Below are positions 590 to 56,317 of a DNA stretch of 64,000 nucleotides, piece after piece. Under the pieces are notes generated by a model. That model saw nothing but the letters and a program-made list of their open reading frames with translations, ran no database searches and was not told the DNA's origin. Within the stretch, counting starts at the first letter, position 1. Each line of letters opens with the position of its first letter. The position numbers were made by a program, and so were the translations under genes. This DNA is from Mesostigma viride (taxonomy: Eukaryota; Streptophyta; Mesostigmatophyceae; Mesostigmatales; Mesostigmataceae): assembly GCA_009746045.1 (NCBI GenBank), contig RPFO01000972.1, positions 175,001 through 239,000 on the forward strand. The letters run 5' to 3'.

Positions 590-755
590 ATGAGCAAACC
601 AAGCGACGCCAGGGACGCCGGTGGAACCTCCATGTTTCCAGCTGCCTTGCCTAGACCCCTGCCGAAACCTCTGTCGGCGAAAAGGGACAAGGAATTGGAC
701 TCTCCAGCGGAAGGAAATGTATCATCCAGGCGCACAGAGAAGCCAAAAGTTGGGA
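590..755 (+). CDS. Giant gene exon 1 (start codon)
   Basis: The ATG is in a GCCGCCATGAGC context. The exon encodes 55 residues rich in Pro, Lys and Asp (starts MSKPSDARDAGG) and ends at a good donor, GGGA|GTAAGT, in phase 1. Reading through the donor meets a stop two codons later, which supports splicing here. Confidence 0.65.
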
Positions 756-3700: not shown

Positions 3701-6700
3701 AACGCTGCTGGCATCCCAGAGACGGGTGTGGTAGGTTGTTGCCGAAACTACCGTGGTCGGTTGCAACAACTAATGTGGTAGGTTGTTGGCAAGAGATCGA
3801 GGTGAAAATGCTGCCAAAAACCAATGTGCTGTGGCTCAGATGGTAGAGCATCTGATCAAATGTGGTAGGCCTCGCCGCCGTGTGTTTCTTCACGTCCTGG
3901 TCACCTGTTGGATGTTGCAGGGAAAAACCGGGCAACACTGTGGTCGTTGCCCGTGTGTTGTGTTCATTTTCCAGTCAGTTTTTGGATTGCAACCCTACAA
4001 CCAGGGAGATGATCAGCATTAACTTGCCATCAGGGCTGCAGGCTGTAGCACCAGATCATGCATGCACTACCATACGCAAGTATGTAATTTTTCTTCTTCT
4101 GCCTTACACTTACACACCAGCCGTGGCATCTTGCACCAAATGCACTAACATCCGTGAGTGTTTTATCCCTGCTTCTTCTTCCTTACACTTGAATCCTCAC
4201 ACACACCAGCCGTGGCAACTGCGCCGACCCACCATATGGGACGTTGACCGCAGCCAAGAGAAGGAAAAAGAGAAGGACAAGGAGGTGGAAAAACTCAAGG
4301 AGAGGGACAAGGAACTCGAACGGGCCCGCCCCTCGCCCCCCTCACAACCACGTCCGCAGGGTTCCGCCACCCCTAGCGGCGCCACCCCTATTATGCCATC
4401 CTCCATCAACCCCACCCAGGCCATTCTCCACCAGATCGACGTCTCATACCGCTTTGAGCGCCCTCTCTCCACCCCTAATGCTGTGGCCTCGTCCACCGCC
4501 GACACCGCCCTGGCGGGCAGAGTGGCAGCAGCGGTGGCCAGTTCAGCCACCGGAGACGGCGGCGTGACGGGGGGAAGCAGTACCCCATGGGGCATGATCA
4601 CTGGCGATGTTGCGGCAGCTAGCATCGGTGCCGATGCCAGCCTTAGTGCCAGATCGGAGACGGGAGGGGAAGGGGCCAGGACCGGTGGGGCGACTGCGAG
4701 GAATCCCAGCAGTGGCAGCAGTAATAATAACAAAGCAATGCATCATAATTCTGGGGACGACACTCGCACCGGAAGAAACAGCATCTCCCATGCGGGCTAT
4801 GCCGGTCCGCCGACCGGTGACGGCAGCAGTAGTACCAGCGGCCCAGGAGGCACGGCCAGGGCCGGTGCGGACGCCAGCGCTGCCGCCCCAGGGTCTATTC
4901 CTCCGTCCCTGATCCATGTGCACGCGATTGGTGGACTAGCCACCCCCTTTTGGCCCCAAGTGCCCCCCCGGAAACCCCGCGCCAAGTCGGCGAGCCCTGG
5001 AAGCCTGATGGTGTCATCATCGCCGGCGGTCGTGGCGGCAGAGGCTATTGCCTCACACTCCGCAGCTAGTAATAATAGTTATTTTGCCGCATCGCTGGGC
5101 CAGGCAGCCCCCTCCTCGGCACCCAGTCAGCCCTTTTCTGCGCGGCCTGATGCCGCTGAGCTGGCGCAGTATTCGGCGAATCTGCGCCAGGGTGTGTTGC
5201 CGGATTCAGAGATCCCTGCCCGGTTCCAGATCTTCAGCCACGACCCTGTGTTCAAAGGTAAGGACGCGCTTCGCGGCAACGTTTTCACAATCCAACCCCA
5301 GGGGGGTGCCTTTCGGACCCGTAGGGTGCCTTTGCGTTTTAAAGTAGGAAATCGCCGTGTTTGAAGGCCTCTTGTGATTTTGAAGGTGATTTTTTTTCCC
5401 CACAGAGAATGATGGCGTGGTAGCGGGGAAATCCTAGGGAGACAGGCCCTAGGATCGATGAGCCTGTTACACCACCTATGAGTGGCTGCCTTGCGAACAC
5501 AGGCGCCACTCCTAGGCGGGAGGGGTAGGATAAGATGGGGGCCGGAGGGGGAGGATTGCGTGGGTCTTTGCATGTCCTCCTTCCTGGTGCTGTATAGGGT
5601 CATCTTTCTCTTGGTCTAGCTGTTTGGGCTCATTATCGCTTGGTCTAGCTGTTTGGGCTCATTATCCCTTGGTCTAGCTGTTTGGGCTCATTATCTCTTG
5701 GTCTAGCTGTTTGGGCTCATTATCTCTTGGTCTAGCTGTTTGGGCTCATTATCTCTTGGTCTAGCTGTTTGGGCTCATTATCTCTTGGTCTAGCTGTTTG
5801 GGCTCATTATCTCTTGGTCTAGCTGTTTGGGCTCATTATCTCTTGGTCTAGCTGTTTGGGCTCATTATCTCTTGGTCTAGCTGTTTGGGCTCATTATCTC
5901 TTGGTCTAGCTGTTTGGGCTCATTATCTCTTACTACTAGAGTTGAGCTGTTTTGGATCATCACCTTGGTCTAGCTGTTTAGGGTCATTATCTCTTTTGGG
6001 GTTGAGCTGTTATGGGTTATGTTCTTGGTCTAGCTGTTTAGGGTCGTTATCTCTACTGGGTTTGAGCTGTTTAAGGTCATTCGCTTGATATAGCTGTTTA
6101 GGGTTTAGCTGTTTGGGGTCTAGCTATTTAGGTTCATTATCTCTTGGTCTAACGCGGCAGGCACGGGGGAGGACAGCGCGTCGTAGCCTTGTGTGTCCTG
6201 TGCGTGCCAACCAACCTAGTCGGCAACCGTGTGTGTCCTGTGCGTGCCAACCAACCTAGTCGGCAACCGTGTGTGTCCTGTGCGTGCCAACCAACCTAGT
6301 CGGCAACCGTGTGTGTCCTGTGCGTGCCAACCAACCTAGTGATTTTTGTATCATGGCAACACAAGGAAGGAAAACTTATAAATTATAACATGACTCCGTT
6401 GGGAGATCATGTAGCAATCTGGAGGACAGTTCAGAGTATTCACAAGGAATTATACACTTTTGTGTTCGATGCGTCTGGATGGTGTCGAACAGGCGCGGCA
6501 GGCAAGGGGGAGGACAGCGCGGAACTGTTGCGGCTCGCGGACCCGAGTGTGGCGCAACGCGACCCGACGCAGGGCGCCGCCGACGAATGGCGTGCACTGC
6601 AGTTCCCCTCCAAGAGGTATCGCCGCTTGTGTCCTGAGAAGCGATGGAGGGATCGTTATCTTTTTAGATGCGCCTCCATTTCCCTCAATGAAGTGGGCGC

Positions 6701-9700
6701 TGGTTTTGTCCCTGAGAAGCATTTGGGGTAGTGATTTTTTTATGCGCTTCATTTCTCCTATAAAAGGTTGACACCGCGTTTGGCCTTGTAACAGATTGAG
6801 GGGTGAATTTTCATGCACGCCACACTCCACATCGCAGCACTCCGCACTCAACACACTGCAAACCAGTGGGGGGAAAGATGGGCAGTGTTCTGTTCATGCA
6901 CTCCACGCCTCAGTTCCCTTTTATGGGGTGGGAACCCCAGCGCTCATCGAGAAGTGGGTGTTGGTGACATCTTCATGCACGCTCACTCACGCCGGTTCCG
7001 GGAGCGGTGCATGCCCATCGCTGCCAGTTCCGCGCCCAAGGGGGCAGTGTAAAGTGCAATAAGCATACGATAGGAAACCCCTTGCCTGTCTTGTCGCTTG
7101 TAGCTTCTGGGTCACTTGTGGCTGGACCACTCTTGGCTAAGCAGCGGCTGGAAGACGTATTGGAATCGAACAGTGACGGACACCCCTTCCTGAAGAAACT
7201 CACTTGATTCATAAAGACCCCTTTGTTCTATCAAGGAGACAAACCCTTTGTTCTATGCTCCCCAGAGGGTCCCCCGGCGATGTGCGGCTAGTTGCCAAGA
7301 AAGCAAATAAGAAAGCAAATAAGAAAGCAAATTAGAAAGCAAATAAGAGAGCGAATAAGAAAGCAAATAAGAAAGCAAATAAGAAAGCACATTGGAGCGT
7401 CCCGTGATTCATGCTGATCTGTCGACTTATCCAGTTACAGGTCACTTCCTCCGAGATCCTTGCTTGTGCGTCCAGTCCCTGCTAGCTTGCTTTTTCTGCT
7501 AGCTTGCTTTTTCCTGATAGCTTCCTTTTCCGGATAGCTTGCTTTTTCCTGATAACTTCCTTTTCCTGATAGCTTACTTACTTTACTTGATTGATTTTTG
7601 TCAATAACCCACTCTCCCTGCCAGGCCATTGGTGCCGATGGAGGTAGTGCACTTCATTAAAGCTAGCGCTGTTACCATTCACTACTGACCCACCCACGGA
7701 GCTAACTCATGTTTCTACCCATCTACCGATTACTGTCTTCTCAACTTGCTTAGGGACGTGCGTCCCCACCCTTGCTCCCTGCCCTTGCTCCACCGCCCTT
7801 GCTCCCTGCCCTTGCTCCACCGCCCTTGCCTGCTTACTCGCAAGCTCGGTTGCTTGCTGATACCTACCACCGCTCCAGGCCGTCGGGCCACCCGGTGGCA
7901 TGTGGTATACCTCACAAATGCTAGCTTTGTAGTCCGCTTCATTTGCCAAGATGCCCCCTTTACAAACAATTTCTGCGCCCACTTTCCTGCTTACATGCCA
8001 GACCCTCGGGCTGGCCGGAGGTGGTCTACCCCATCAAGTTCCCCATCAAGTTAGACTAGCTTCCTTGTCAGCACACCTGCTTGTGTGCCCACGTATGTTC
8101 CCACCAATAGCTATAAGCTCATTCGCCTATTTAGTTTAGTACTCACCGATATTCCTTACCTGTGTAAGCGCCTTACCCTGGCGCCCTCTGGAGGTGTTCT
8201 ACCTCGCAAACGCTAGTTCTGCTGCCAACCCACTTCCCGCTAGCTTTCTTGTCAACTTACGGACGCCCTTGCTATCGCGCGCTTGCCATCCCGCCCTTGC
8301 TCCCCCGCCCTTGCTTGCATGCTTTCTTCCTCACTATTCCTTCCCCCCCGCACCCCACCCACCAGCCCGTCGGGCCGACTAGAGGTAGTATGCCTCGCGC
8401 GCGTGCTGGACCTGATGTGTGCAGAGATCATCGAGAAGATGCCGGACAAGGAGGCCCCGCAACAGGCCATGGGCGGGCGGGGGGCACCAGAGGAGTTGGC
8501 CGCGGTGGACCTGGACGCGTCATCGTACGCACTGTGGGACGTGAGTACGAGTCTCTTGTAGGAAAACACTGTTATTTACTATCACAGGACCTGGACGCGC
8601 CATCGTACGCGCTGTGGGACGTGAGCCTTCCTTGGGTCTTTAAGCGTCATGAAAGGACCTCGACATACTGCAGTATGCTACTATCATACCTTGACGCGCC
8701 GTCGTGTGCCATCTGGCATGTGAGTGGTTGCAATAGACCTATGACGTATCATAGCCTGATGATCGATTTCGCCTGTCTACCGAAACCCGCTTCTTACTAC
8801 TATTTGATCTTTGTTAGGTCTACTCGGTGATCTGGAAGGAGCTGGTAACCCAAGCGGGGGCGCACTGCATATTCCTCCATCTCCATTCCATTTACTAAAC
8901 GCCCACAATCCGATTCCATGATTCGACTAACAGATCCCCCCACAAACAAACATGATTCCACTAGCAGGACCCCACACAAACAAACATGATTCCACTAACA
9001 GACTCACACACAAACAAACATCATTCTACTAACAGACGCGCACACTAGCAAACACATTAATCTCCTACCCCCACACTAACAAACACAATTGTACTACCCC
9101 CCACATTAACATTCGCGCCAGGTCTATTTGGCCATCTGGAAGGAACTGGAGCACCTAGTGCCGTGGTTGCTCACCCCAGTCCGCCCAACATGTGTCTTAC
9201 CAAATATTGGCCGCCAGGTCTACTCGGTCGTCTGGAAAGAGCTCGTCCGGCAAGTGTGGGTGCACTGCGTTGAGCGGGGAGTGCTCCTTGAGCGGCTCCG
9301 CCGCGGTGTGGCCGACATCCTGTCCTTCCTCTCTTCTTATGCGGTTGCGGCGCGGTTGGCGCTGGGCGACCTTCTCCGCCAGCTGGCGGAGAAGAAAGAC
9401 GCGCTCATCGGGGTCACGAGGGACGTCTCGGAGAAGGGCGTGCATATCCAGTCGCTGGAGTGCCAGGTCCAGGTGCTGGAGGTGAGGGCTGGGGAAGAGT
9501 TTTTACATGGCCTATAAAGGGGATCTCACGGCTGCCAGCATATATCCTGTTTGGCGTGTCCATCCAGCCGTAGAGTGCCAAGTCCAGGTGCTGGAGGTGA
9601 GGGATTTTCTCTGTTCTTGAAATGGATACGCCATCCAGTAGCATAGATCCTGTCGGGTGTGCGCATGTAGTCGGTTGAGTCTCAGGTCGAGGTGGTGGAT

Positions 9701-12700
9701 GTGGGTGGGGGAGACGGGCGCTTGCACCCCCCGCTTGAGGCTGATGACGGATCCGGCCGATCCAGGGCTGCGATCTTAAACCTGAAATCAAATCCAGGGC
9801 TGCGATCTTAAAGTAGAAAACGAATCCAGGGCTGACCATCTTAAACATCAAGTAGGCACATCCACCCACCCTCGCGTACGACTGACCGCTACTTAGCAGC
9901 GCTTGGTGCCTGCTTTGAGATCTTTTTCCCCCAAACCAGCCCTGCGATCCCCGATTTGCAAAATCCAGGGTCTCGAGATCTTAAACCTGAGAATCATAAA
10001 CCTCGAACTGGGGGTGTATCTGGCTTCTGAAGGTGGTTTTACAGCCCGGGCTTGCAGGTCGGTTTTGATGCACATCGCAGGTCATTTGAGTGCCAAGTCC
10101 AGGAGCTGGAGGTGAAGCCTGGGGATGGCTTCTCATTAGCAGGGCTGGTGTTTCTTGGCCGTCATTAGCGTCACGCATTACTGGGTGTGCGCGTCCAGTC
10201 ATTATAGCGCCTGGTCCGGGTGCTGGAGGGGAGCCAGGGGGGGAAGGGGGGGAGGGAGGGGTAGGCAGCCTGATTGTGTTACAGTAGGCAGCCTGATGGT
10301 GTTACGGTAGGCAGCCTGATGGTGTTACAGTAGGCAGCCTGATGGTGTTTCGGTAGGCAGCCTGATGGTGTTACAGTAGGCAGCCTGATGGTGTTACGGT
10401 AGGCAGCCTGATGGTGTTACGGTGGGCAGCCTGATTTTGTTTTACTGTTTTAACATGATTGTGTTGCGGTAGGCAGCCTGATTGTGTTTTACTGTTTTGA
10501 CCTGATTGTGTTACGGTAGGCAGCCTGATTATGTTACGATGAGCAGCCTGATTACCTTTTTGTAGTGTTCAACCAAGGTGTCTGTCGGTTGGGTAATGCT
10601 GAGTGTCTCGAAGTCTCTCCTCCACGCAGCATCCCTACCATAGAACGCTGCTTTGAGTTCGTTTCGGTGCAGAGAAACTCATGGACGGCCGGTCCACATC
10701 ATGTATTAGTACGACCGGGGCTCATGCGGTGGTGCAGTGAGAGAGGCGTGGAGGGGCTTCCCCCTCCTGGTCGTGTAGCAGAGATCTACTGCACCGCCTT
10801 CCATAGTTCGTTGGTACCTGTGCTGGGTTTTTGCCCCTATTTAAAAGATACCTTAACACATATGATCTTATTTCCTTTCTCTATCTAAGGCCCCCCTCCT
10901 CGTTGTGTATAGGGGTTGGAGGTTCCTTTACTTTGCATTGGCACCCATTTGACGCACTCGCGTGCTTATTAATTATTAATAATTAATCTACGGCCTTGCT
11001 TGTATCCACCCTCAATGACCATCGTACCCTATGTCCTGCTCCCGCGCTATGCACAGGCCATGCTCGAAAAGGAGCGGCCGCGCACGACCCAACAGGCTAT
11101 TGTGCCAATGCCGTTACCACATTTTATGGGATGCACAGTTATTTGCCCCATTTGTCCCATTCGACATGTAATTGTTCTGTACATGCAGGCCATGCTGGGA
11201 ATGGAGCCCTGCGCACAGCCAAGCCAGATTACTGACAGCGCTTTATTATACCAAGCGGGTTGTGAGTGCGTTTGCCATCTCTCAAAGCTAATCAGACTTT
11301 TTTTTTTTCACTCTTGCGCCCCCATCATCTCCGTGTGCAGGCCATGCTTGAGAAGGAGCGCCTGCGCACGGCCAAGCAGGCGGAACAGCTGGCCGAGCAC
11401 GCGGGCCGCGCGACCACGCAGCAGTCGCGCATCGACCAATTGGAGATGACATCCGATGCGCTGAGGGACGCGCTTGCTGATGTGCTGGCGCAGGCGAGGG
11501 GGAAGGGTTCCACGCTGGCGGTGCCGGAGGCTGTACGCACGATTCTTGCGAACGCGGGTGCGGCCAACACGTACGAGGAGGACAGGGAGGTGGGTGGGGG
11601 CTGAGTGTGTGTGTGGGGGGGGGGGTGTTACTCCATCGATAAAGAGTAGGTTGAGATAGTATTGATGGGGGGCCGCATGCACTATCGTGGGTAACACATA
11701 CGAGGAGGACCGAGAGGTGCGCGGGTGGGACAGGGGGCGGTTGCTGGCGGTGGCTACTGTGTTATGAACGAGGTACGTATGTGATATTGATAGGAGGCTG
11801 TGCGCAGTTTTTGTTGCCAGCAAATGTAAGGAGGATTGAGAGGTGGATGGGGAGGGCGCGACCGTGAGGAGGAGGCAGGGGTAGGTGTGGGTGGGGAGGA
11901 GGTGGGGAGTGGGGTCGCTGTGTGTTAATGTTTTGCTGTGTGTTAAGGTGTTTGTCCGCAACACTCGGCTCTGTTTGTCTTGACTCCAATCTATCTCCAA
12001 ATATATTTCTGATGGATGCCTGTTGCTTAACTGTCCATCACAGGCCATGAAGCGGCTGCGCCCTTATGCTTCGCTGTGTGTCTGGAACTCACTCATTCCC
12101 ATGCCTGATGGCTTCACTTTCTGTGATAATGTCACAGGCCGTCGAGCGCCTGCGCTCATTCCGCAACGCTCAGCTGGTCGAAGCGCTGGAGAGCGCGCGC
12201 TCCTCCGCCGCCGCGTGGGAGGCGCTCGCCACCACGGCGATGAAGCAGCTCGCGTTGCAGGCGGTGGAGCGGCCGGTGGTGATGGGGGCGGGTGTCGCGG
12301 GGGTTGGGCTCGGTGAGGCGGAGGTGACAGCTGGCAGGAGCGGGTCGTCCGCGCTGGGATTGAAACGGACGGGACGTGGTGAGGACTTGGACCCAACAGG
12401 CCTGTTTTGCTTGCTTTCTTCATCGTCTGTGATGCGGACTTGAACTAAAAGGTTTACTACAGCGGCTTATCAAGGCAACCCCCTATTTAGGCTGTTTAGG
12501 CTTATTACTGTATTTTACTTTCTTTTATTATCCTCTATTCTCAACCCCCTATCCTGTAATTTCCGTTCTGTAATCTGCTCTCTACATTCTTCAAAGTGCC
12601 TTTACAAAATAGAGCGTCCCAAGTATGAGTGCTTGCGCGTTCTGTTCTCTCTAACGTTAAGGCCCTCTTTCTGACTTTTGACAAGGGCAACTCAAACAAC

Positions 12701-18700: not shown

Positions 18701-21700
18701 CAGCTGGGCGCGGCGGGGCGGCGGGCAGCGCTCCAAGGGGAGCCAGAGGCTACCGGTAATGCTGGCGTCGATGCTGATGCGGACACGGGTGCAGACGCTG
18801 GTGGGGCCGTGTCTGCGGGGGTGGCCAAGGATGGGAAAGATGGACATGTTCTACCGGGTGGCAGCATTAACGCCCCCAGTGGCAGCAGCGGAGGAGGTAC
18901 TGTAGGTATGTCAGGGATGGAAGCCTTGAGCTCCCCGGGCGGTGATGCCGCCGCGGCGACCGATGGCGCCCCCAGGGACGCGCCAGGGACCGCCATTCAG
19001 GGCAACGGGCAAGGCACCGCCGGTGCGCCAGGTGGCGGTGAGCGAGGGGGGCAACCGTCGCAGGGTCTTTTGGGCGGTGCCACTGGCGCGGAAGGGACTG
19101 CTGGGGGACCAGGGGCACACCCGGGTCGAGGCCTCAGCAGTCAGGCGGACGTCAGTAGCAAGGAACCTGGAGGAAGTGCCCCGTCAGGCATGCCGGCCTC
19201 TGGAGGGGAGGATATGGGTCAGGTGGGGGCCGGCGAGGGTCAGACAACTGACAAGGTTCAACCAGATGACAAGGGTCTAACGCAAGGGCATGACCAGGAG
19301 GGCCAACCACAAGGCCTTAATCGTCAGGAATCTTTATCGGGGGGCATCATCCCTGTCCATGGAGACAAGTCGCTTACCAACATGCTCCCGCCCGCCCACT
19401 TCTCGCCTTCTTCTGGCGACGGTCACGTCTCGCCCTCGTCTGCCAGCGGGGTGCCGTCCCCTGCTGGCGCGGCGGCTGCGGTGGCGCCAGCTGGCGTGCC
19501 GGGCGGGGGCGAGGGTGCCTCTGCCGCAACGACAAGTGGAGCTGGGGAGGGGGAAGTCACAAGGAGTGATGGAGAGGGGAGGAAACCGAGCAGTGCTGGG
19601 GGGGGTAATGGGGCGGAGGGGTCAAACCCAGGGGGTGCTAATGCTAGCGCGCCCAGTGATTCTGTCCGCGCAGTCACTGCCGTATCGCCAGAGACAGGTA
19701 CCAGTGGGTGTCATCCAGGCACTGTGGGCGCCCACAAGGAAGGGGAAGGCGCCCTGAACGTTAAACAGGGAGGGGTGCCCTTGGCTGCCGATGCGGCTAT
19801 CAAGGCAGAGGGCATGGGAGCAAATGATGCTGGGCCTGCGGCCACGGAAAAGGTGGAGGGGGCAAAGGACGCAGGGTCGGACGGGGAGCAAGACCGAGCC
19901 AGGGAGCAGGCTGGTGGGCAAACTGGCACCAGCCAGCCAGAGGCGGGCAAGGGGGCGGAGGGCGGTAAACAGGAATCCGGGGGGGCAGTAGAGCCGCAGA
20001 AAGCGCCTGCAGAGCCGAGTGTTGGGAAACCACAAGATGGCGGGAAGGAATGGGATAGGAGCAAAGCTGGGCAACCACAACCACAAGGGGTGGATGGCAG
20101 CAAGGCGGGGGTGGTGGATGGCGTGCCCCAGACGCTGGCGTATTCCTTCATCGGCTTCACGGGCGCCCCCTTTGCACCCGAGAGCAGCGTGGTCGGGTCC
20201 GGCGTGCAGGGCTGGTTCGTGTGGGACCCGTCGACTCGGATGTACGACGTGCTCACGCAGCCCCATGCATCTGCGCTCGCAGGTACGTATCTTCATCACA
20301 CTAGTATCTTATGGCTCACATGTCTTTACAGGTATTAAAGATAGGAGCGGCTGCGCTCGCAGAGATGTGGCAGCGCTTGTCCGACGACACCCCTCGTGGT
20401 TGCGGTTTCAGGGTTTAGGGTTCAGGGTTTTTAGGGTTTAGGTTTTACGATTTTATGGTTTATGGTTTAGGGACGACTATGCTTTTCGCGCTTGTCCGAT
20501 GACTATGCTGTTCATGGGGGTTTCGTTGGGTTTGTATAGCAGTCGCGTGCTTTAAAATTGATCTACAGAACTTTCATCAACTGACTTAAACGTTGCAAAG
20601 CACAGCCAGCTGTCTCTTTCCATTCCCGTCTAGCCCCTAGGACATGCTCATGTATGTTCATGTGTATTAAAAATAGGTGCGGCCACGCTCGCAGGTGGGG
20701 TGGGTAGGTGTTGGGTTTTGCGTAGCGGCTGCTTCGTTTCATGTTTGTGGGGTGTGCCTAGCCTGGTCGGCTGCTTCTTTTCATGTTTGTGGGGTGTGCA
20801 TAGCCTGGTCGGCTGCTTCTTTTCATGTTTGTGGGGTGTGCCTAGCATTGTCGGCTGCTTCCCTTTGTTCCCTATGAATAGTAGAACTGGGAGAAATTTG
20901 CTTGAACTAGATTTGTTAGATGAACTCAGGGATCCCTTTGTTCCTGTAAAAATAGCAAAGTAGAGATTTACTTGAGCTAGATTAACTGTTTTCCCAGCTT
21001 ATTAGATTGGCTGGTTCCCTTAGTTCCCTTAGAAGTACTAGAACTAATGGAAATCTACTCGAACTAATACTAGATTCATTAGATTAACTGCTTTCCTTTG
21101 TTCCCTTCTAACTCCTATGATGTGCTCATCCAGCCTCAGCACGCCACGCTCACAGGTGGGTCGTTGCTCTGGTAGGGTGCCCATGCAGGTTTTGGCCAGA
21201 GGCACGCGCAGGTGGAGTGCTGTGCTGCACGTGTGTAGCATTGCTACTATGCCACTAGTGCTGGTTTGAGACCAGACCGGGACATGACAGGCCCGTGACT
21301 GACGCAGGATCCTGATTCCATCAGCGATGCTATTTCAACATGTTTTTATCATAGTTAACCCTGCTAAGGGTTGCTGCACGTTCTGTCTGTCGCACTTGTC
21401 TTTTCCTGTAAGATACTAGAGCACTCCCATGCTAATTTTCTGCCCTCTACCCTCCCCCCCCTCCCCCCTCCCTCTTTCTCCCTCTCCCCACACCTATGCA
21501 CCCGGGCACCACCCTCCCCGTCTTTCGGACCATGCCCATGCGGTCAAACGCCCCTGGAACACCCGCCAGGTGTCCGTGCGCTTGTGGAGGGCGCGGAGCT
21601 GGTCGCCCCCGGCATGAACAGCGCCCAGCTGGCGCTCTGCCTACAGTGCCAGCTAGCGCAGTGCATGCGTCCGTTGGAGCGCGTCTTCCAGCGTTACTGC

Positions 21701-24700
21701 CTCATGCTGGACTCGACAGGGCAAGGTGGGCCTTCCAATCCATGAGAGCAAATAGAGAACATGATTTTTTAGTCTCCATACGACCTGCAGGGTCTTCCAG
21801 GGCGACTGCCTCATGCTGGCAAGAAAAGTTTTTGTTGCTCATGGTCTTGTTGGTCATGTTGGGGCTCCATGTCAAGGCTCATGGGTAAATTATCGTGGGG
21901 CTCCATGTTTCTTGTTTCTTCTCTTAGCTCCTCTCATGCCCACTTTATCTTATTCCTCTTATTGTGTAGTAGTATAATATTTCTGCAGCGCTCATTTGGT
22001 TTGGAACAGGGCGGAGTTCAGTCTTCTTCACTTCCACCTCTCGGCTCTCCCCCGCCCTTCACCGCCCCTTACTTCCCATCGCCCCATTGCATTCACACGC
22101 CATCCACTCAACTCACTTTCCCTTCAACCCCCTTTTCTCTTATTCAACCCCAAGGGACCCACCCTACCCCACCCCCTCCGCATCCCCATTATATTGCCCC
22201 CCCCCCCCTATGATCCACCCCTGGTCATCCCTGGACCTATGATCCATCCCCCCTGGTCATCAACCCGTTGCGATATACCACGCACGCGCCCCTCTTCTGC
22301 CCGCGCCCCCACCGCCACCACCATACAAACACCCCTTCACCGCCTGCAGTCACAAGCCACCCCTTCCACTGCGACCTGCGCCAGTTTGAGATGCTCTGCA
22401 AGGGCAGCCGCCTCAAGCTCAAATCCTCCGAGATGGCCCAGCTCTACAGCGACCCACGCCCAACGCCCAATGCCACCACGGGGGGTGACGGCAGCAGTAA
22501 CAACTCAAGCCCTGCCTCCTTTGAGCTCAGCTCCTCTCCCCGCAAGGGGGGTGTTGGGGCCAAGAACTCGTCCAATTTGTCCAACTTGTCGAATCTGTCC
22601 GCCAGCTCCGGCGAGGGTGCCTTGATGCCAGGGTACCAGGCGCCCCCTGAGATGGACTTCATCGGCTTCCTGGAGTCGTTGGCGCGGCTCGCGGTCTTCC
22701 GGTGGGCGCTTGTGGACGGATCATGCTCAGGATCTGGTCACTATCCGCGTATTGTGTACTGTGCTACAATACGCCCCCGTATTGTGTACTGTGCATGTAC
22801 TACAATGCTGCATGCGCTACTAGTACCTACCTTTTAGCCTTAACTACGATACCGCATGCTCTACTAGTACCTACCGTGAGCCTTAACTACGATGCTCCAT
22901 GCTCTACTAGTACCTACCTTTTAGCCTTAACTACGATACCGCATGCTCTACTAGTACCGACCGTGAACCTTAACTACAACGCTCCATGTTACACTAGCAC
23001 CGACCGTGAACCACTGCTACCGATGCCAGACCGACAGTCTACCGGTGGGTGCTTGTTTAGTATGGGTGCTTTGTAACCAAGCGTGCTTGTTAGCATGCAT
23101 CCCCTTGTTGTCTCTTGCACGCCTTTTCGCCTACTGTTGCACCATACTAGGGTATCGCACCGGTGCATTCGCATCCTATACCAGTACTATGTGCCATAAT
23201 TAGTCCACAGGCTCGCGATATACCGGCGCATGCTTATGGGCTCTCTGTGAGCTTCACCAAGAGTGCTTGGTAAATATATTGATTGAGAGTGCATGATAAA
23301 TAAATTAGTTAAGAGTGCTTGGTAGATAAACTAATTGAGAGTGCTTGGTAAATAAAAACCACACCATCTGTCTGTCAACCTTTCCCCGTGCCACGTTACC
23401 CTGTCCGCCAGCAAGCTCGGCCTCATGCAAAGTTTCTACCATACTCCTTTTAAAATTTGCCTAACTGTTGAACTATCACTTCCTTGATAGCTATTTTTCT
23501 TTTGCCTTTGATGGCTTTCCCTTGGCTATCTCTTTACCATTCCTTGCCGTCTCTCCTTTTCCCGTGCTATCTCCCCGTGCAGCTTCGCCATGTCCGCAGG
23601 CAAGCTCGGCACGGTCTCTGTCCTCCAACAAGGGAGCAGCGCCACCGCCGGTGCCGCCTCCACAGCCGCCACGTCAGCAGCCAACGAGACCAGCTTGACG
23701 GCCTCGCTGACCAGCGGGGGGGGTTCTGGTGCCGGCAGCAGTGGCGGAGGCGCAGCCACCAGCACAGCCACCACGATCCCGGAACACCTGGCGGAGGTGC
23801 TGCACAAGCACGTGCTGCGATATGCCGCTGCCATGAGGCACCCGCGCAACTTCTTCCGGGAGTTGGGCGATGACAACGTCCAGGTATTAAGTAACACAGT
23901 TGCCCGCTTTAACTACGCTGCAATGTTCGCTACTACTATCTATGCTTTGGTTTGTGTTTCTTCCGGGAGTTGGGCGATGCCAACGTGAAGGTATTAAGTA
24001 ACACAGTTGCCCGCTTTAACTACGCTGCAATGTTCGCTACTACTATCTACGCTTTGGTTTATGTTTCTTCCGGGAGTTGGGCGATGACAACGTCCAGGTA
24101 TTAAGTAACACAGTTGCCCGCTTTAACTACGCTGCAATGTTCGCTACTACTATCTATGCTTTGGTTTATGTTTCTTCCGGGAGTTGGGCGATGCCAACGT
24201 GAAGGTACCCCATCTCCCTCTCCTAGCCTTACACCCCACGTCCAACTATCGATGTATTACTTGATTGCCTCACTCCTTGATTTTCCAGTTGAATCTGATA
24301 AAATGCTTTGTTATATACTAGGTGACATGAGTTGGGATAACCAAGTTAAAGTATTATGTACACTGGTATCTCAATACTACTTGTCGACGCTGGTACTTAA
24401 CTACTATCAACTGACAAAAGCAATTGTCATCTTTGCCTTTGACCCTTAGCGCCGGCACTTACCAGCTTGCTCCCATTTTCCTTGCCTTTGACTCGATATC
24501 CCATCACCATCGCCACCCTTTTGCCTCACACCTGTACCACCCCGTTTGCGCGCCTTCGTTCCCACCTATCTTCCCTACCCCTTCTAGTAAATACCCGTTT
24601 GCCCCCCCCCCCCCCCCTTGTGGTCCTCACCTTTTTGCCCCCCCCACCCCCCTCTTTTGGCCCTCACCTCTTTTGGACCCCGCCCCTTTTGGCCCTTACA

Positions 24701-27700
24701 TATTTTAGCCCCTCACCCATTTTGGCCCTCACCTCTCCCCCCCCCCCCCCTAGTGGCCCTCACCTCTTTTGGCCTCATCACCCCCTTTGGCCTTCCACCC
24801 CTTTTTGGACCCACCCGCCCACCTTTACCCCCCCCCCGGCCAGGCCATGCTGCGCATCCCCTACGCCTCGTTCCTGCGCAAGTTCTTCATGTACGCGCGT
24901 ACGCTCGGCGCAAACCCCGGGCGTGCAGACAGTGATGACGAGGGCAGTCGGTCAGGCACCCCGCGTGCTGACGCCCGCAACAAGCCCCACCCCGGGAAGT
25001 ACAACAGCTCCAACAACGACAACAACAATGACTCCCCAAAGGAGCCGAATCGCCCCGAGCTCTCGATATCTCGTCGGGGGCAGCGCGCGAGAAGCCTCGA
25101 CGGGACTGCGTCGAAAGACAAGGAGTTGGACGCGGCGGTGGAGGCAGCGATGGCGAGCAAGAAGGCCCGGTCGAGCGGGCGGGGCGTCACCTACTCAGCG
25201 TGGCTGCGGCTGTGTGACGTGTGCGAGATCACGTCAATGGACACGTCGCGCCACGCGCATGACGGGTGGGCGGGTCACGTGATGGCGCCCGACACGGCGG
25301 CGCAGGTGTGTGGATGGGATGTTATTTTATGGATATATATAAAGCAGTATGGGGATGGACATTAGGTGTGTAATGGTGTGTACAATGACAGTCACGTTGC
25401 GAGCTGGTGGACGGGGGTCGATGAAGTTATGCTGCTGTACGCGAGTGTTTGTGTAGTGAAGTGAGTACGTGTACATGGCTGGAATCGAACATGTGACTTG
25501 GAATGGAGGGTCGCGGTGGTCTTGATGATGCAGCCGAGTCGCCCGTGACAAGAGATTTTGTTTGCCATTATTATAGAAGTCTGTTAAACAAAGGGGGGGG
25601 GGGGGGGGGGGGGGCGCCCGCTATAGCTTGATTCCACCATTAACTCGTCGTCTGTCCCAACTCAGTCCTCACAGGAGGACTGAGTTGACAACTTTCAACC
25701 GCGTGTAGCGACTAGGTGGGGGGTCCATCCCAAATGTTTTGATGTGGATCAGGGGTGTACTAGATGTCATTTTGTTGGCAAAAATACTGCATATGTGAAA
25801 ACTTGACCCGAACACCTGAAAATTACACGGACGTTGGGCACCCCTCGCGAATTTGCATTTTTCGGGATAAGAACGAGTGGGAAAAATTCAATCAAATCCT
25901 GGTGCATGAAGAAAAAATATAGGCATGTAAACAATATAGTTCTTGAAACGTGGCAAAAAACTGGGCTCGATTTGGCCACTGCAACTGCCTGAAACAATTA
26001 AAAAACTCTCAGTCCTCAGGAGAGGAATGGGGCTTTTGCTAACTTTGCTAGCATGTAAGTGCGGTCATACTACACACCACCGTGGCCACCAACCATCCCA
26101 ATCAACTCATTTCCCTTCAAGCATTACAGGACAACACACTTGCATCATCATACTTCAGGTATATCATACCTTATCATGTAGTGAGAGCCTATGCATGCAT
26201 GTAGGGAATGGGCTTGGATACCTACCAACAAAGGGTTATGTTATAAGTGTCAACCACCAATATAATGGGTAGGTTAAGCATATTTCCATTGTTTCTAACA
26301 ACAATAGATATGGCTATAACTGTTTTGCCTTGCCATTATGTGGCCAACATAGTTGCTGGCACATGATGGCAGTGGTTTGTCACCAAGACTTTTCACTCAC
26401 CCGTAAAAGCTTGAATGCACCCTTGACGCAGCCCGTGGCCACACAATCATGCAGTATGAACGTAGCAAGAGAATAACTAACATCTATGAAGGTGTTTAAA
26501 CCTGCACAGCTCCTAAAACCCTGCACAACTACACTGGGTTAAGGTACATCCCCGGGTTAGGCTACGTTTTTTTCTCGTGGGCGGCGACCGTAACGTAGAC
26601 CGGGTGTGACTCTATGTGGATATATACTCTGTGTGGATAGATACTCTATGTGGATAGATACTCTATGTGGATATATATGGATGTAGCTTAAATGATCATC
26701 ATAACAATAGAAGCCATCAGGACAGCACAAGGAAGACATCCTAACTAGAGAAACGAAAAGTCCAAGCAAACAAAGAGAATGGAACAGCCAAGGTTGGTTT
26801 ATTTATTAATACAACTGTCAGATAATCAATTGATTTTGTTCATTTTATTGATGTTTAATAATTTAACTGTGGTATCACGCAGACGGCGACAAGATGGACA
26901 TATACAGAGATATCACTTTTTTCCCTTCATCCGCTCGCCCTGCCTATCCATACAATCCCTCCCTCCTTCAGGTATTTGTCGAGGTATTAACAGAGGACGA
27001 CACCGACCCGATCCTTCGCCAGCTCAAGGCGCGCAGCGAGGCAAACCCCCCTCTCCAGCGGCAAAGCATCAGCACACGGCAGGGGTCCACTGACAGCGCC
27101 AACAGCACGGGCGTCAGCATAAATGAGTCGGGCCGCGGCGACAGCGGGGGTGTCGGCAACGGGTCCTCGGTTGGGGGAAGCCGCGGCACCCTCTGGCGTG
27201 CCGGTCTGGACCAGCTGCGGCGGGTGCAGTGGGAGCCATCACTTGACTTGGAGTCGTTCTCTTCGGCACTTGCACGGTGGGTTGGTGCATGGAAGGGCTT
27301 TTGTTCGGCACTGGCGGTATGGTTTGTGCGCACATGTTGTCATAAGTGGTTGCGTCTTGCTGTACTATCACTTTGTTGAAACCGTGAGAGATGTTTATGC
27401 ATTGTGCTCTTCTAGAGCTTATAAATCTAAAACTAGAAATCTAAGACTGAAATCTGTGTTCTTCTGTTGTTCTGCTGGTAGAGTCAAATAACAGAGAAAG
27501 AGCTAATCATTTAGGTACCTATGTTGGCTTTTCACCTCACTGCCATATGCTGCAGAAAAACACAGTTATGTCCTGTTACAAGCTCCACATATAGAGAACT
27601 GCAAGGCCAGTACATGGATGTTCTCATTTGTGCCCTTGTTGCCTTCCTGTAAGTCTTCTCTGCATGTTGCATGTTGCATGTATGGCTGTATGGCTGCATG

Positions 27701-27834
27701 GGTGCAGGTGCGCGGACCTTCTCTTTCATGACGAGGGTGAGGGCTTTGAGTCCCTGGAGGCCAAGATACAGCTACTGATGACAAAGAAGCTCCTGCCTAT
27801 GGTGTCTATCCTGCCTTCCTTCCCTGCTGTTTGA
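590..27834 (+). CDS. Giant 19-exon axonemal-type protein with p28/TSNAXIP1-like motif, coiled coil, split ILEI-like domain and EF-hand-like C-terminus
   Basis: Exons: 590-755, 1952-2142 (end uncertain), 3212-3730, 4210-5257, 6493-6616, 8366-8540, 9218-9481, 11341-11589, 12138-12378, 13676-13783, 14084-14396, 16934-17138, 18386-20282, 21570-21725, 22350-22701, 23583-23883, 24844-25305, 26972-27276, 27708-27834. Together they give 7203 nt, or 2400 residues plus TGA. All introns begin GT and end AG, and the phases join without a stop, which is strong evidence that this is one gene. Residues about 740-830 carry ELVRQVWVHCVERGVLLERL, the motif shared by axonemal dynein light chain p28 (DNALI1) and TSNAXIP1/AXDND1-type proteins; coiled coil follows to about 990. 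Residues about 1202-1833 hold an ILEI/PANDER-like domain. Residues about 1834-2400 look like degenerate EF-hands. The likely setting is the flagellar axoneme (inference from the motif). Alternative: two adjacent genes, one ending before exon 13; no stop supports that. Confidence 0.72.
1500..1607. repeat. 58-bp direct tandem duplication
   Basis: The GATATCTAACAATGCCATCT unit with its downstream part (ATGATATCCATGCTATCTAG) occurs twice in intron 1. Confidence 0.8.
1826..1932. repeat. (CGTCAT)/(GGTCAT) imperfect hexamer repeat
   Basis: Imperfect hexamers of the GTCATC/GTCATG type end about 20 nt before the exon 2 acceptor. Long frames on both strands here are by-products. Confidence 0.8.
1952..2142 (+). 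CDS. Giant gene exon 2 (3' end uncertain)
   Basis: Acceptor GTGCAG. Phase 1 from exon 1 opens a helical frame with heptads (FQQVLQQVEEAVAKSSRNMD). The donor is ambiguous: GAG|GTCATG at 2043 and AGG|GTGCCC at 2142 both give phase 0, as exon 3 requires. No clear decoy copy settles the choice. Confidence 0.45.
2335..2533. repeat. 47-bp tandem repeat, about 4 copies
   Basis: The unit begins GGGTCTGTTATTTGGGGCGT and ends TTGAATAGCGCTCAAA. It lies in intron 2. Confidence 0.85.
2775..3155. repeat. 27-bp minisatellite, about 14 copies
   Basis: The unit starts CATGGCCCCTATCGTAACCT and ends GATTGTT, with scattered substitutions. Because 27 is a multiple of three, three frames stay open (for example HGPYRNLIV repeats). 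The array is intronic, so none is likely translated. Confidence 0.95.
3212..3730 (+). CDS. Giant gene exon 3, Pro/Ser/Gly-rich linker
   Basis: The acceptor GCCACAG and donor GTGTG|GTAGGT frame 173 codons of low-complexity Pro, Ser, Gly and His sequence with no known domain. Phase 0 at both ends. Copies of the donor region (TGTGGTAGG) recur near 3773 and 3861 in the following intron. Confidence 0.6.
4210..5257 (+). CDS. Giant gene exon 4, charged coil and low-complexity region
   Basis: Starts after CACACCAG. It encodes an E/K-rich coil (EKEKEKDKEVEKLKERDKEL) followed by about 270 residues rich in Ala, Ser, Gly and Thr, and ends with the ordered-looking motif RFQIFSHDPVFK before AAAG|GTAAGG (phase 1). 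A decayed acceptor copy (CACACCAGCCGTGGCA) lies about 80 nt upstream at 4122. Confidence 0.68.
5605..5937. repeat. 29-bp minisatellite, about 11 copies
   Basis: The unit is TCTAGCTGTTTGGGCTCATT followed by ATCTCTTGG. Degenerate copies continue to about 6150. Intron 4. Confidence 0.95.
6183..6342. repeat. 40-bp tandem repeat, about 4 copies
   Basis: The unit contains CGTGTGTGTCCTGTGCGTGC and CAACCAACCTAGTCGGCAAC. It follows directly after a decayed copy of the exon 5 start. Confidence 0.93.
6368..6422 (-). mobile_element. Short LINE 3'-end fragment
   Basis: On the - strand it reads GATCTCCCAACGGAGTCATG then TTATAATTTATAAG. This matches the 3'-terminal hairpin and AT-rich tail of the LINE copies at 28741, 36440, 47521 and 54560. 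Only about 50 bp remain, within intron 4. Confidence 0.5.
6493..6616 (+). CDS. Giant gene exon 5
   Basis: Acceptor TCGAACAG, donor AAGAG|GTATCG, phase 1 to phase 2. It encodes about 41 residues (GEDSAELLRLADPSVAQRD...) and links exon 4 to exon 6 in frame. A decayed copy of its first 30 nt sits at 6150-6182 in the preceding intron. Confidence 0.62.
7296..7393. repeat. 12-bp tandem repeat (AATAAGAAAGCA)n
   Basis: About eight units with single substitutions, in intron 5. Confidence 0.9.
8366..8540 (+). CDS. Giant gene exon 6, start of p28/TSNAXIP1-like region
   Basis: Acceptor CCACCAG, donor GGGAC|GTGAGT. It encodes VVCLARVLDLMCAEIIEKMP and ends DASSYALWD, directly joined to the ELVRQV motif of the next exon. 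Phase 2 to phase 0. Four decayed acceptor-side copies precede it and two donor-side copies follow it. Confidence 0.72.
9218..9481 (+). CDS. Giant gene exon 7, ELVRQV...ERGVLL motif and coiled coil
   Basis: 88 codons, phase 0 at both ends. It starts VYSVVWKELVRQVWVHCVER, then GVLLERLRRGVADILSFLSS. This matches the ELxRQVxxxCxERGxLLxRxR pattern of axonemal dynein light chain p28 and TSNAXIP1 N-terminal families (family knowledge). It ends in a coiled coil (LECQVQVLE). Partial copies of its first 40 nt lie at 8819 and 9122; copies of its last 30 nt lie at about 9573, 9676, 10088 and 10204. Confidence 0.8.
10262..10560. repeat. 23-bp minisatellite, about 9-12 degenerate copies
   Basis: The unit is GGTAGGCAGCCTGATGGTGT plus TAC, degenerating toward the 3' side. 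It lies in intron 7, after the decayed donor copies. Confidence 0.93.
11341..11589 (+). CDS. Giant gene exon 8, coiled coil
   Basis: 83 codons, phase 0 at both ends: AMLEKERLRTAKQAEQLAEH onward, a clear heptad pattern, ending NTYEEDRE. Decayed acceptor-side copies lie at 11055 and 11187, and donor-side copies at about 11690 and 11825. Confidence 0.75.
12138..12378 (+). CDS. Giant gene exon 9, coiled coil then Gly/Ala-rich
   Basis: Starts AVERLRSFRNAQLVEALESA after GTCACAG and ends GACGTG|GTGAGG in phase 1. One decayed acceptor copy (CAGGCCATGAAGCGGCTGCG) lies at 12041. Confidence 0.72.
13676..13783 (+). CDS. Giant gene exon 10, acidic linker
   Basis: 36 codons (GGIERCEDGSTIDMGGAEEV...), phase 1 to phase 1, with acceptor TCGCCAG and donor GTGCAG|GTAGGG. 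Three decayed acceptor copies (CAG then TTGGCATCGA-like) lie at about 13140, 13366 and 13552. Confidence 0.68.
14084..14396 (+). CDS. Giant gene exon 11, Ser/Pro/Gly linker
   Basis: The open frame has no ATG, so it is easy to miss. It encodes SFHLPNLRIKIDEDRTSATT and then a Ser/Pro/Gly-rich stretch ending GASPR|GTGAGG, phase 1 to phase 2. Decayed donor copies (GTAGCCCGAGGCAAGGGTCT and a shorter one) lie at 14450 and 14541. Confidence 0.68.
14640..14965. repeat. 74-bp tandem repeat, about 4 copies
   Basis: The unit runs GTGGGTTACGGTAAGTGCTG through TCGATCCCAGATGTAG. Each copy carries GGTAAGTG, a good donor-like sequence. Intron 11. Confidence 0.93.
15121..15298. repeat. About 58-bp tandem repeat, 3 copies
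   Basis: Units contain CTAATACTACTAGTTAGATG and AGTATGAGACATAACCAT, just before the first decayed exon 12 edge at 15305. Confidence 0.9.
15811..15885. repeat. 10-bp repeat (CCTTATTCAA)n
   Basis: Seven exact tandem units in intron 11. Confidence 0.95.
16934..17138 (+). CDS. Giant gene exon 12
   Basis: Acceptor GTTCCAG. It encodes RFTMEDRELAAIPGETFLAR, a basic RMRRRRK segment and a Gly-rich tail. The donor is ATCTCT|GTGAGTGGGC (phase 0). Five or six decayed acceptor-side copies are scattered over 15305-16842, and two donor copies lie at 17327 and 17460. Confidence 0.72.
17511..18305. repeat. 10-bp minisatellite (CCCACCCCTT)n, about 79 units
   Basis: Nearly perfect CCCACCCCTT array of about 795 bp with four or five 9-bp units (one C lost). 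It lies in intron 12 and ends about 80 nt before the exon 13 acceptor, so transcripts carry a very long polypyrimidine stretch there. The other strand has G4/G3 runs in every unit. Reading frames through it (TPSHPFPPLP repeats) are artefacts of the array. Confidence 0.97.
18386..20282 (+). CDS. Giant gene exon 13, split ILEI/PANDER-like domain
   Basis: 632 codons from VPLTVAVDVNGTCEI to DVLTQPHASALA. The first 115 residues include FDLRDPASTKQIVAGLSGLD, FVILVAVGEG and LLHSCGAKFWQQLGAAGRR. These follow the ILEI/PANDER (FAM3-type) pattern: F-D-T, a residue run ending in V-L-V-A, then L-x-S-x-G-A/S and L-G-x-R. After about 460 residues of Gly/Ala/Glu/Gln-rich low-complexity sequence comes YSFIGFTGAPFAPESSVVGS, which looks like the missing last ILEI strand (W/Y-x-x-I-G-x-K-G-A). 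Assignment is by eye. Confidence 0.72.
20404..20472 (+). repeat. Degenerate interstitial TTTAGGG-type repeats
   Basis: About 70 bp of imperfect GGTTTAGGGTT, GGTTTAGG and ATGGTTTAGGG motifs inside intron 13. They match the plant/green-algal telomere heptamer, but are too short and degenerate to be a telomere. Confidence 0.6.
20735..20862. repeat. About 42-bp tandem repeat, 3 copies
   Basis: The unit contains TTCATGTTTGTGGGGTGTGC and CTGGTCGGCTGCTTC. Intron 13, near a decayed exon 13 donor at 20680. Confidence 0.9.
21570..21725 (+). CDS. Giant gene exon 14
   Basis: Acceptor CCGCCAG, donor GGCAAG|GTGGGC, phase 1 to phase 1. It encodes a helical stretch with LERVFQRYCLMLDSTGQ, resembling the first helix of an EF-hand pair. 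A decayed copy of its last 35 nt lies at 21789-21822. Confidence 0.7.
22350..22701 (+). CDS. Giant gene exon 15
   Basis: Starts VTSHPFHCDLRQFEMLCKGS after CTGCAG, has a Ser/Asn-rich insert, and ends PPEMDFIGFLESLARLAVFR at CCG|GTGGGC. The DLRQFEMLCK and MDFIGFLESLARLA segments have the spacing of EF-hand helices without clear calcium loops. Donor copies (ACCGGTGGGTGCTTG) lie at 23041 and 23213. Confidence 0.72.
23583..23883 (+). CDS. Giant gene exon 16
   Basis: Acceptor CGTGCAG. It encodes a Ser/Thr/Ala/Gly-rich insert followed by HLAEVLHKHVLRYAAAMRHP and FFRELGDDNVQ, ending at CAG|GTATTA. Phase 2 to phase 0. The last 30 nt plus the donor are repeated three times in the following intron. Confidence 0.72.
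23884..24205 (+). repeat. Tandem repeat carrying exon 16's end and its donor site, 3 intronic copies
   Basis: A unit of about 110 nt holds TTCTTCCGGGAGTTGGGCGA, TGACAACGTCCAG and GTATTAAGTAAC followed by intron sequence. It is repeated with copies ending at about 23990, 24098 and 24205. Two copies carry CCAACGTGAAG in place of ACAACGTCCAG. This is the clearest example of exon-edge amplification in the window. Confidence 0.95.
24844..25305 (+). CDS. Giant gene exon 17
   Basis: 154 codons, phase 0 to 0: AMLRIPYASFLRKFFMYART, a polar insert, then VTYSAWLRLCDVCEITSMDT and ending DTAAQ|GTGTGT. The acceptor is preceded by a 230-nt C-rich pyrimidine tract. Confidence 0.72.
25593..25614. repeat. Poly-G run
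   Basis: About 22 consecutive G in intron 17, the longest homopolymer in the window. It is prone to assembly error. Confidence 0.95.
25659..25686. repeat. Perfect hairpin, 12-bp arms
   Basis: Arm AACTCAGTCCTC, loop ACAG, and the exact reverse complement. It lies in intron 17 just after the poly-G run. A related CTCAGTCCTCAGGAGAGG occurs at 26007. Confidence 0.85.
26612..26681. repeat. About 20-bp tandem repeat, 4 copies
   Basis: CTCTATGTGGATAGATA-like units in intron 17. Confidence 0.85.
26972..27276 (+). CDS. Giant gene exon 18
   Basis: Starts VFVEVLTEDDTDPILRQLKA after CCTTCAG, has a Ser/Gly insert, and ends SLDLESFSSALAR at GCACG|GTGGGT (phase 2). A donor-side copy (TTCGGCACTGGCGGTATGG) lies at 27306. 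Confidence 0.72.
27708..27834 (+). CDS. Giant gene exon 19 (stop codon)
   Basis: Acceptor GGGTGCAG. It encodes CADLLFHDEGEGFESLEAKI, then QLLMTKKLLPMVSILPSFPA and TGA. The joining phase (2) gives Arg at the junction. No obvious polyadenylation signal was assigned downstream. Confidence 0.7.
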
Positions 27835-41619: not shown

Positions 41620-41775
41620 ATGGGGTCGAACGCTCCGGGAGAGGACCACCCGGCTGACTATACGAGCCTCACCAACGATCTATGGCTGAGAATACTCGAT
41701 TTCCTGGAGCCCTGCGATCTGTCTAAGTGCGCGATGGAATGCAGAGACTGGAGCGAACTAGGGCAGCGGCCAGAG
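41620..41775 (+). CDS. F-box gene exon 1 (F-box motif)
   Basis: 52 codons, ATG in an ATCTCAGCA context, donor CCAGAG|GTATTT, phase 0. Contains most of the F-box. Confidence 0.82.
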
Positions 41776-52120: not shown

Positions 52121-52416
52121 CGACGGAAAGTCTCGTGACGACCTTGCCGCGCGCGGTCCCGGCGTCGGGGGCATGCATGCATTGCCAGTTTTGCCACATG
52201 AGCTCATGAGGACAAAACGCCCGGGCTGCACGGCTTTATAGTGCCAGCTAGTCTGTCTGATGTGTCTGCCTGATCTGTGCGGGCCAGGTGCCCCGCTAGG
52301 CCCAGGCGCCTTTGCCTAAGCATGTCGGAAACATATGGTATAATTCATTCATTAATTAGTACTAATTAATTAATACTAATTAATTAATTAATAAATGTCT
52401 GTAATTAATTAATAAA

Positions 52417-52916
52417 TGAATGAATGAATGAATGAATGAATGAATGAATGAATGAATGAATGAATGAATGAATGAATGAATGAATGAATGAATGAATGAA
52501 TGAATGAATGAATGAATGAATGAATGAATGAATGAATGAATGAATGAATGAATGAATGAATGAATGAATGAATGAATGAATGAATGAATGAATGAATGAA
52601 TGAATGAATGAATGAATGAATGAATGAATGAATGAATGAATGAATGAATGAATGAATGAATGAATGAATGAATGAATGAATGAATGAATGAATGAATGAA
52701 TGAATGAATGAATGAATGAATGAATGCATGAATGAATGAATGAATGAATGAATGAATGAATGAATGAATGAATGAATGAATGAATGAATGAATGAATGAA
52801 TGAATGAATGAATGAATGAATGAATGAATGAATGAATGAATGAATGAATGAATGAATGAATGAATGAATGAATGAATGAATGAATGAATGAATGAATGAA
52901 TGAATGAATGAATGAA
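52417..52916. repeat. (GAAT)n tetranucleotide microsatellite, about 125 units
   Basis: 500 bp with a single substitution (TGCATGAA near 52725). The 176-residue frame of SFIH repeats on the - strand is an artefact. Confidence 0.98.
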
Positions 52917-53060
52917 TTACACGTGACTGCGTACGTCACGCGAGTAAAAGTCCTCAGTGGGAGGGGAACATGGGATGAAATGGATTATGCTAGCTATCAA
53001 GTTCCTAGTTACAGGGTTGTGGGCACCACATATGCTAAATCAGCGTGCGTACAAATCCTC
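52917..53060 (+). mobile_element. Partial copy of TTAA element 2 end
   Basis: TTACACGTGACTGCG...GAGTAAAAGTCCTCAGTGGG and GAACATGGGATGAAATGG match the end of element 2. The part with CCTAGTTACAGGG and GTGGGCACCAC matches its right interior in inverse orientation. The other end is not found intact; TTAATAGACACGTGACTG recurs at 53234. Confidence 0.6.
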
Positions 53061-56238: not shown

Positions 56239-56317
56239 CGAGTTGTATCCCGATCGGATACAGTATGGCCTGCAGACCCGGGTGTAGCAATGGCAACCTC
56301 TGGCAGCAGTAACTTAC

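Follow-up and report, generated by a model that had tools for sequence, protein, structure and literature searches.

Introns of Mesostigma viride very probably lengthen by recurrent short local duplication throughout their length, and the decayed copies of exon edges and splice sites found beside many of their junctions would be silent fossils of this neutral growth. We came to this reading from one window, by which we mean the whole stretch of 64,000 nt that was analysed (assembly GCA_009746045.1, contig RPFO01000972.1, positions 175,001 to 239,000), where a first-pass annotation had noticed such copies in the long introns of a giant gene. Of the five gene sets that we sampled, four show the pattern (the giant gene, a mitochondrial carrier gene, chaperonins and kinases) and the fifth, an F-box gene, does not.

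The genome searched comprises 440 Mb in 2243 contigs; the genome description of M. viride in PMC6947507 gives 441.8 Mb, 2363 scaffolds, a mean intron of 1141.87 bp and repeats in 30.1% of intron space. Joining exons E4 to E19 of the giant gene (4210-27834, + strand) yields one open frame of 2108 codons with a TGA stop, all 15 introns being GT-AG; exons E1 to E3 are tentative and stand outside the 135 introns counted below. The exon model is as follows:

4210-5257, 6493-6616, 8366-8540 and 9218-9481, + strand: exons E4 to E7, open frame, GT-AG
11341-11589, 12138-12378, 13676-13783 and 14084-14396, + strand: exons E8 to E11, open frame, GT-AG
16934-17138, 18386-20282, 21570-21725 and 22350-22701, + strand: exons E12 to E15, open frame, GT-AG
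23583-23883, 24844-25305, 26972-27276 and 27708-27834, + strand: exons E16 to E19, open frame, GT-AG

An exon-by-exon Pfam scan of E4 to E13 returned a single match above cut-off, to axonemal dynein light chain, covering 31 residues of E7 (9218-9481; E 6.8e-6, 26.7 bits against a cut-off of 26.4), and one below cut-off in E8; by the E7 match the gene may encode a flagellar protein. Condensed queries from the C-terminal part (E13 to E19) gave no Pfam match (750 residues) and no homolog among the 7998 candidates sharing most words that were scored (518 residues), so that orthologous introns are not comparable for this part of the protein. Two further genes of the window were included in the search, of which the neighbouring mitochondrial carrier has streptophytes as its best named relatives:

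57159-62411, + strand: mitochondrial carrier gene, partial exon model, acceptor copies in introns 2 and 3
59780, 59921 and 60003, + strand: acceptor copies in carrier intron 2, from the own-junction search
41621-47142, + strand: F-box gene with 5 introns, 0 junction copies beyond all shuffles

Each own-junction query consisted of 34 nt of exon and 8 nt of intron, and was scored against its own intron and 100 dinucleotide shuffles. Seven of the 15 giant-gene donors (E6, E7, E8, E11, E13, E14 and E16) and eight of the 15 acceptors (E5, E6, E7, E8, E9, E10, E12 and E16) exceeded all shuffles, donors E12, E15 and E18 being equalled by 2, 1 and 1 of them; a repeat with 200 shuffles gave eight donors (the earlier seven and E15) and seven acceptors (E6 was lost). 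The first-pass annotation had named 11 donors and eight acceptors. Seven of its donors were confirmed, E12, E15 and E18 are borderline (E18 also weak by eye), and E3 depends on where its uncertain exon end is put, 2 or 8 of 200 shuffles scoring as high. Every one of its acceptors passed a test, E4 with 0/200 shuffles and the other seven with 100 shuffles, that of E6 passing at 100 only. Alignments showed one to about five copies per copied junction and agreed with the size and number first described (one to six copies of 20-50 nt). The copies lie at these positions:

4072-4137, + strand: copy of the E4 acceptor edge (0/200 shuffles)
6153-6180, + strand: copy of the E5 exon start, without the acceptor AG (27/28 in exon-only search)
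7610-8030, + strand: three decayed copies of the E6 acceptor edge (7610, 7821, 7998; not beyond all 200 shuffles)
8587-8625, + strand: first copy of the E6 donor edge (-34..+5, 37/39)
8688-8725, + strand: second copy of the E6 donor edge (-32..+6)
8772-8868 and 9108-9147, + strand: two copies of the E7 acceptor edge (shuffle test, alignment)
9553-10246, + strand: four copies of the E7 donor edge (9553, 9655, 10069, 10169; shuffle test, alignment)
11054-11097 and 11184-11224, + strand: two copies of the E8 acceptor edge (shuffle test, alignment)
11693-11927, + strand: copies of the E8 donor edge (shuffle test, alignment)
12016-12075, + strand: copy of the E9 acceptor edge (shuffle test, alignment)
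13106-13568, + strand: three copies of the E10 acceptor edge (13106, 13365, 13516; shuffle test, alignment)
14448-14602, + strand: two copies of the E11 donor edge (shuffle test, alignment)
15306-16745, + strand: E12 acceptor edge in several copies, most plainly at 15306, 15623 and 16724 (shuffle test, alignment)
17325-17500, + strand: two copies of the E12 donor edge in which intron tail predominates (borderline, 2/100 shuffles)
21116-21157, + strand: copy of the E13 donor edge (also a 12 nt exact copy at 20351)
21792-21819, + strand: copy of -43..-15 of the E14 exon end, without the splice site (shuffle test, exon-only search)
23383-23421, + strand: copy of the E16 acceptor edge (shuffle test, alignment)
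23851-24207, + strand: E16 donor array, period 107, 3.3 copies (repeat finder)
24329, + strand: one further decayed copy of the E16 donor edge, array region to 24408 (alignment)

Exon-interior segments and other giant-gene junctions scored at about shuffle level (some 1-2 points over the shuffle maximum). In a sliding scan of the giant gene, matches peaked at 6/15 at both donor and acceptor edges and fell to a trough of 1-2/15 just inside the donor, and exon windows centred 45-120 nt from the junction had none at any offset (12-15 junctions each). Own-junction matches are therefore commoner than matches to random exon segments, the comparison put forward in the first pass; the finding stands and is not confined to the window, and random intron segments are the more informative control. 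That copies become more diverged with distance, as was also claimed, holds as a trend only: across 22 arrays pooled from all gene sets, the nearest copy was better than the farthest in 13, worse in 6 and tied in 3 (p = 0.17).

Chaperonin genes (PF00118) were found in the same genome, and the exons of ten of these loci, modelled by spliced profile alignment, gave full or partial proteins with GT-AG introns and no internal stops. Across 72 chaperonin introns, 21 donors and 7 acceptors had own-junction copies beyond 200 shuffles (antisense, 0 and 1). A single locus, L037, supplies 5 of these 21 donors and 5 of the 7 acceptors; lying at G000:C1407:75801-84800 and bearing copies at 10/16 junctions, it is the richest gene sampled. 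Two other chaperonin loci (G000:C887:341605-349664 and G000:C1641:60944-67934) have identical scores over their shared exon spans and are probably duplicate or allelic contigs. Forty kinase introns, modelled in the same way, had copies at 8 donors and 6 acceptors (antisense 0/80), the carrier gene at 0/3 donors and 2/3 acceptors, and the F-box gene at 0/5 donors and 0/5 acceptors when a match beyond all shuffles was demanded. The pattern thus recurs in three gene sets besides the giant gene, and in total the 135 introns bear copies at 37 donors and 22 acceptors, with 1/270 in the antisense control; other shuffles gave 38 and 23. These counts leave out 11 kinase introns for which one of the flanking exons had little support, and an uncertain 15 nt exon of chaperonin L035 with the two introns around it, and the interior and profile counts that follow exclude introns below 260 or 300 nt.

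Random 42-mers from intron interiors were copied within their own intron as often as junctions were (114/500 against 59/270, detectability being only roughly equal in the two), and a second draw with 100 shuffles gave 210/1000. The systematic amplification of junctions proposed in the first pass is for this reason not supported; the emphasis on junctions comes from exon conservation, which keeps those copies visible. Exon interiors behaved differently from intron interiors, with 3/350 segments copied and 10/489 overlapping windows of the first eight chaperonin loci (100 shuffles). Junction copies were found within the junction's own exon in 1/158 cases, a near absence that is expected if exonic duplications are removed. 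Junction and interior copy rates rise together between genes (rho = 0.42, p = 0.019, 31 genes) and between introns (rho = 0.29, p = 0.001, 125 introns). Given equal copying of interiors and the correlation between genes, what happens at junctions looks like the margin of a process that affects whole introns.

This process is uneven. Overlapping intergenic blocks from the window (28000-55400) contained local self-copies in 40/480 cases (8%), significantly fewer than the intron segments above (p = 3e-10), so the rate at which local duplications arise or survive must vary. Per gene, the junction copy rate ranged from 0 to 62%, with just 2-6 junctions behind many of the zero values, and interior copies numbered 31/90 in the giant gene versus 0/24 in the F-box gene (37% and 6% in other draws). 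As the sole suggestion we can offer, differing duplication or deletion rates may account for these between-gene and intergenic differences. Copy-rich interiors go with longer introns (rho = 0.31, 125 introns), the introns with junction copies were not significantly longer (median 824 versus 698, p = 0.13), and GC content showed no significant correlation. Donors exceeded acceptors among discordant introns, 28 to 13 over all sets (p = 0.028) and 19 to 5 in chaperonins (p = 0.007). The giant gene, with copies at 8/15 donors and 7/15 acceptors, and the carrier, with 0/3 and 2/3, lack this excess.

Traces of the duplication itself came from a repeat finder, which in the 38 copy-bearing introns out of 95 (window genes and chaperonins) detected five arrays crossing a donor (periods 40, 48, 48, 76 and 107), each holding 16-33 nt of exon. 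Such adjacent units across donors, with no preference for the junction over the neighbouring intron, are what local tandem duplication leaves behind, and together with the recurrence in unrelated conserved genes they support the earlier proposal that introns grow by short tandem duplication across junctions. For 41 of the 45 positive junctions of these 95 introns (the extent search gave no copy for four), the exon part of the best copy had a median length of 26 nt (IQR 20-36, maximum 57) and its intron part 11 nt, at a median spacing of 121 nt, and only 3/41 had an exon context above 45 nt.

We compared these figures with simulations of neutral short tandem duplication under substitution, indels and silent-only acceptance. 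Units of 45-60 nt, the best-fitting length (75 nt was similar), gave copies at 24-29% of donors, a peak at the junction, a trough at +20..+40, a median spacing of 107-198 and a median intron extent of -12 to 15 nt; in chaperonins, copies at donors (21/72) fell to a trough of 9/66 at +20 and +30. Units of 120 nt also produced peak and trough, with copies at 17 and 26% of donors (0.257 at the higher rate tried), so that in the model unit length is not fixed by donor rate, peak and trough alone. Their exon parts had medians of 60-62 nt and they predicted matches 50-90 nt inside exons, which are absent from the data: on the donor side, 0/268 chaperonin and 0/110 window-gene windows matched there, against 0.00-0.13 per window in the simulations with the shorter units. 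At 100 nt inside exons, 1/39 chaperonin windows matched. With 45-60 nt units, too, simulated exon parts were longer than those observed (medians 38-52, upper quartiles 67-98), no limit having been imposed on them. The short exon parts are compatible with selection against decoys carrying more exon context, and also with a unit-length distribution narrower than the one simulated.

On the preferred reading of neutral growth, short local duplications, mostly tandem and roughly 40-100 nt long, would arise frequently in introns, presumably by replication slippage or end-joining. Those within an intron would be silent, and those within an exon would alter the protein and probably be purged by purifying removal. 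A duplication spanning a donor or acceptor would remain silent for as long as splicing keeps to the outermost site, the upstream one of two donors or the downstream one of two acceptors, and the open frames suggest that the outer sites are indeed those in use. The duplicated exon edge and splice site would then lie within the intron and decay, and the copies would move apart as further duplications and indels arose in the tails. Copies of exon edges would stay readable because their exon reference is conserved, whereas intron-intron pairs drift on both sides.

The donor excess lies outside the predictions of the symmetric duplication model. First-come-first-served splice-site choice would probably make acceptor duplications more harmful, and hence leave more donors. 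A variant of the preferred reading builds on this, holding that local duplication is a property of the introns of certain genes and not of the whole genome, as the uneven interior and intergenic counts above may suggest, and that the junction copies which become fixed are filtered by their danger as decoys. Short exon context and the surplus of donors over acceptors are as first-come-first-served splicing would predict under such a filter, and the neutral alternative of a narrower unit-length distribution could also account for the former; we regard this variant as unlikely. If it were true, the genome would amount to a natural mutagenesis experiment on the choice of splice sites, and the duplication process might be linked to transcription.

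It is improbable that mutation favours junctions as hot spots where some -30..+10 around the splice site is preferentially copied, for example at transcription-coupled structures or the spliceosome. The exon part is short for its spacing (ratio against a uniform expectation, p = 7e-10, 34 junctions), the copy profile has its peak at the junction and its trough at +10..+30, and in an exon-only search 29/33 donor copies (9 of the 33 from one array) and 11/14 acceptor copies ended no more than 3 nt from the junction. Exon parts were also more alike than intron flanks: among pairs of intronic copies, flanks rose above the 95% null in 7/41 and exon parts in 35/41, and among original-copy pairs in 17/43 and 40/43. 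Double divergence and fast-changing intron ends could, however, cause the unlike flanks, and the spacing is probably inflated by later insertions and hence is not the original unit length. Junction-specific copying is weakened further by the chaperonin copies with long matching tails and the full tails of several arrays, by simulations that yielded the same peak and trough with no hot spot built in, and by the equal copying of interiors; we rejected it as a candidate.

It is highly improbable that the copies are functional decoys or recursive splice sites under selection, regulating splicing. In many of them the donor is intact and GTGAG-like or the acceptor is a pyrimidine-rich AG, and 7/15 giant-gene acceptors read AG|GT (E7, E10, E12, E13, E14, E18 and E19), which makes acceptor copies look like recursive splice sites. 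The core dinucleotides are nonetheless not above background. Counted over 95 introns (kinases outside, near-identical copies of 97% or more dropped), the exon-only search found the donor GT kept in 23/28 copies, where exon identity predicts 22.2, and the acceptor AG in 7/13, where it predicts 10.0 (p = 0.09); nine of the donor copies belong to one array, without which GT is kept in 14/19 (expected 14.4). There was thus no sign in these introns that copied splice sites are maintained, and the suggestion that decoys are kept for function finds no support. Junctions also do without them, at 0/10 in the F-box gene having any and 116/144 in chaperonins having none.

Decayed alternative exons or tandem exon duplications are barely credible as a source: the E6 copy at 8587 does lie between an AG and a GT and would make an in-frame 33 nt exon, but the best copies hold one exon edge only, their exon part never exceeding 57 nt (41 junctions), where a whole exon would bring both, and several have frame-breaking indels in their coding part. 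We give as little credence to the idea that these introns were born when exon segments with AGGT underwent tandem genomic duplication, for which the 7/15 giant-gene exons beginning with GT after AG could speak, since resemblance of intron start to downstream exon start and of intron end to upstream exon end was found in 0/135 introns each in ungapped tests and in 1/135 and 0/135 in local ones; recent births are thereby disfavoured, old births not being visible.

Several known systems resemble what we describe. Internal gene duplication across exon-intron boundaries was reportedly treated by Gao and Lynch in 2009; it shares the boundary-crossing duplication within a gene, whereas the units we see stay under 110 nt and deposit no more than an exon edge within the intron. 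Intronic minisatellites share the short-period arrays, five of which overlap a donor here, whereas these arrays include 16-33 nt of coding exon with the splice site, and most copies are too decayed for a repeat finder. Tandem genomic duplication of AGGT is described as a route of intron gain in a review (PMC3443670), with Drosophila cases of gain by tandem duplication in PMC2891723; the local tandem duplication of a splice motif is the same, but here existing introns lengthen and the 135 introns bear no birth signature. Introner elements also add sequence in introns (PMC9860276); they differ in that copies here match their own junction and not the junctions of other introns. An introner would be the same element in many introns, and 13/14 donor and 2/3 acceptor matches in chaperonins beat every swapped junction. 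Among the titles and abstract openings of the matches listed on intron duplication, none described junction-spanning intron duplication, a weak negative.

The copies provide direct sequence evidence for intron lengthening in one green-lineage genome, in which about one in five sampled junctions bears the fossil of a duplication across itself. They place many natural decoy splice sites beside real ones, and can show how much exon context competition needs. They also counsel caution, as own-junction matches need comparison with intron interiors before a role in splicing is claimed.

Other repeats of the window are of a different kind. The E12-E13 intron holds a minisatellite at 17508-18304, 80 copies of CTTCCCACCC with 98% matches, and long near-perfect tetranucleotide arrays lie at 52403-52917 (AATG x129) and 63156-63442 (GACC x72). 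On the minus strand, 55594-56313 is an open frame with an IBR match and a weak RING match, resembling an RBR ubiquitin ligase.
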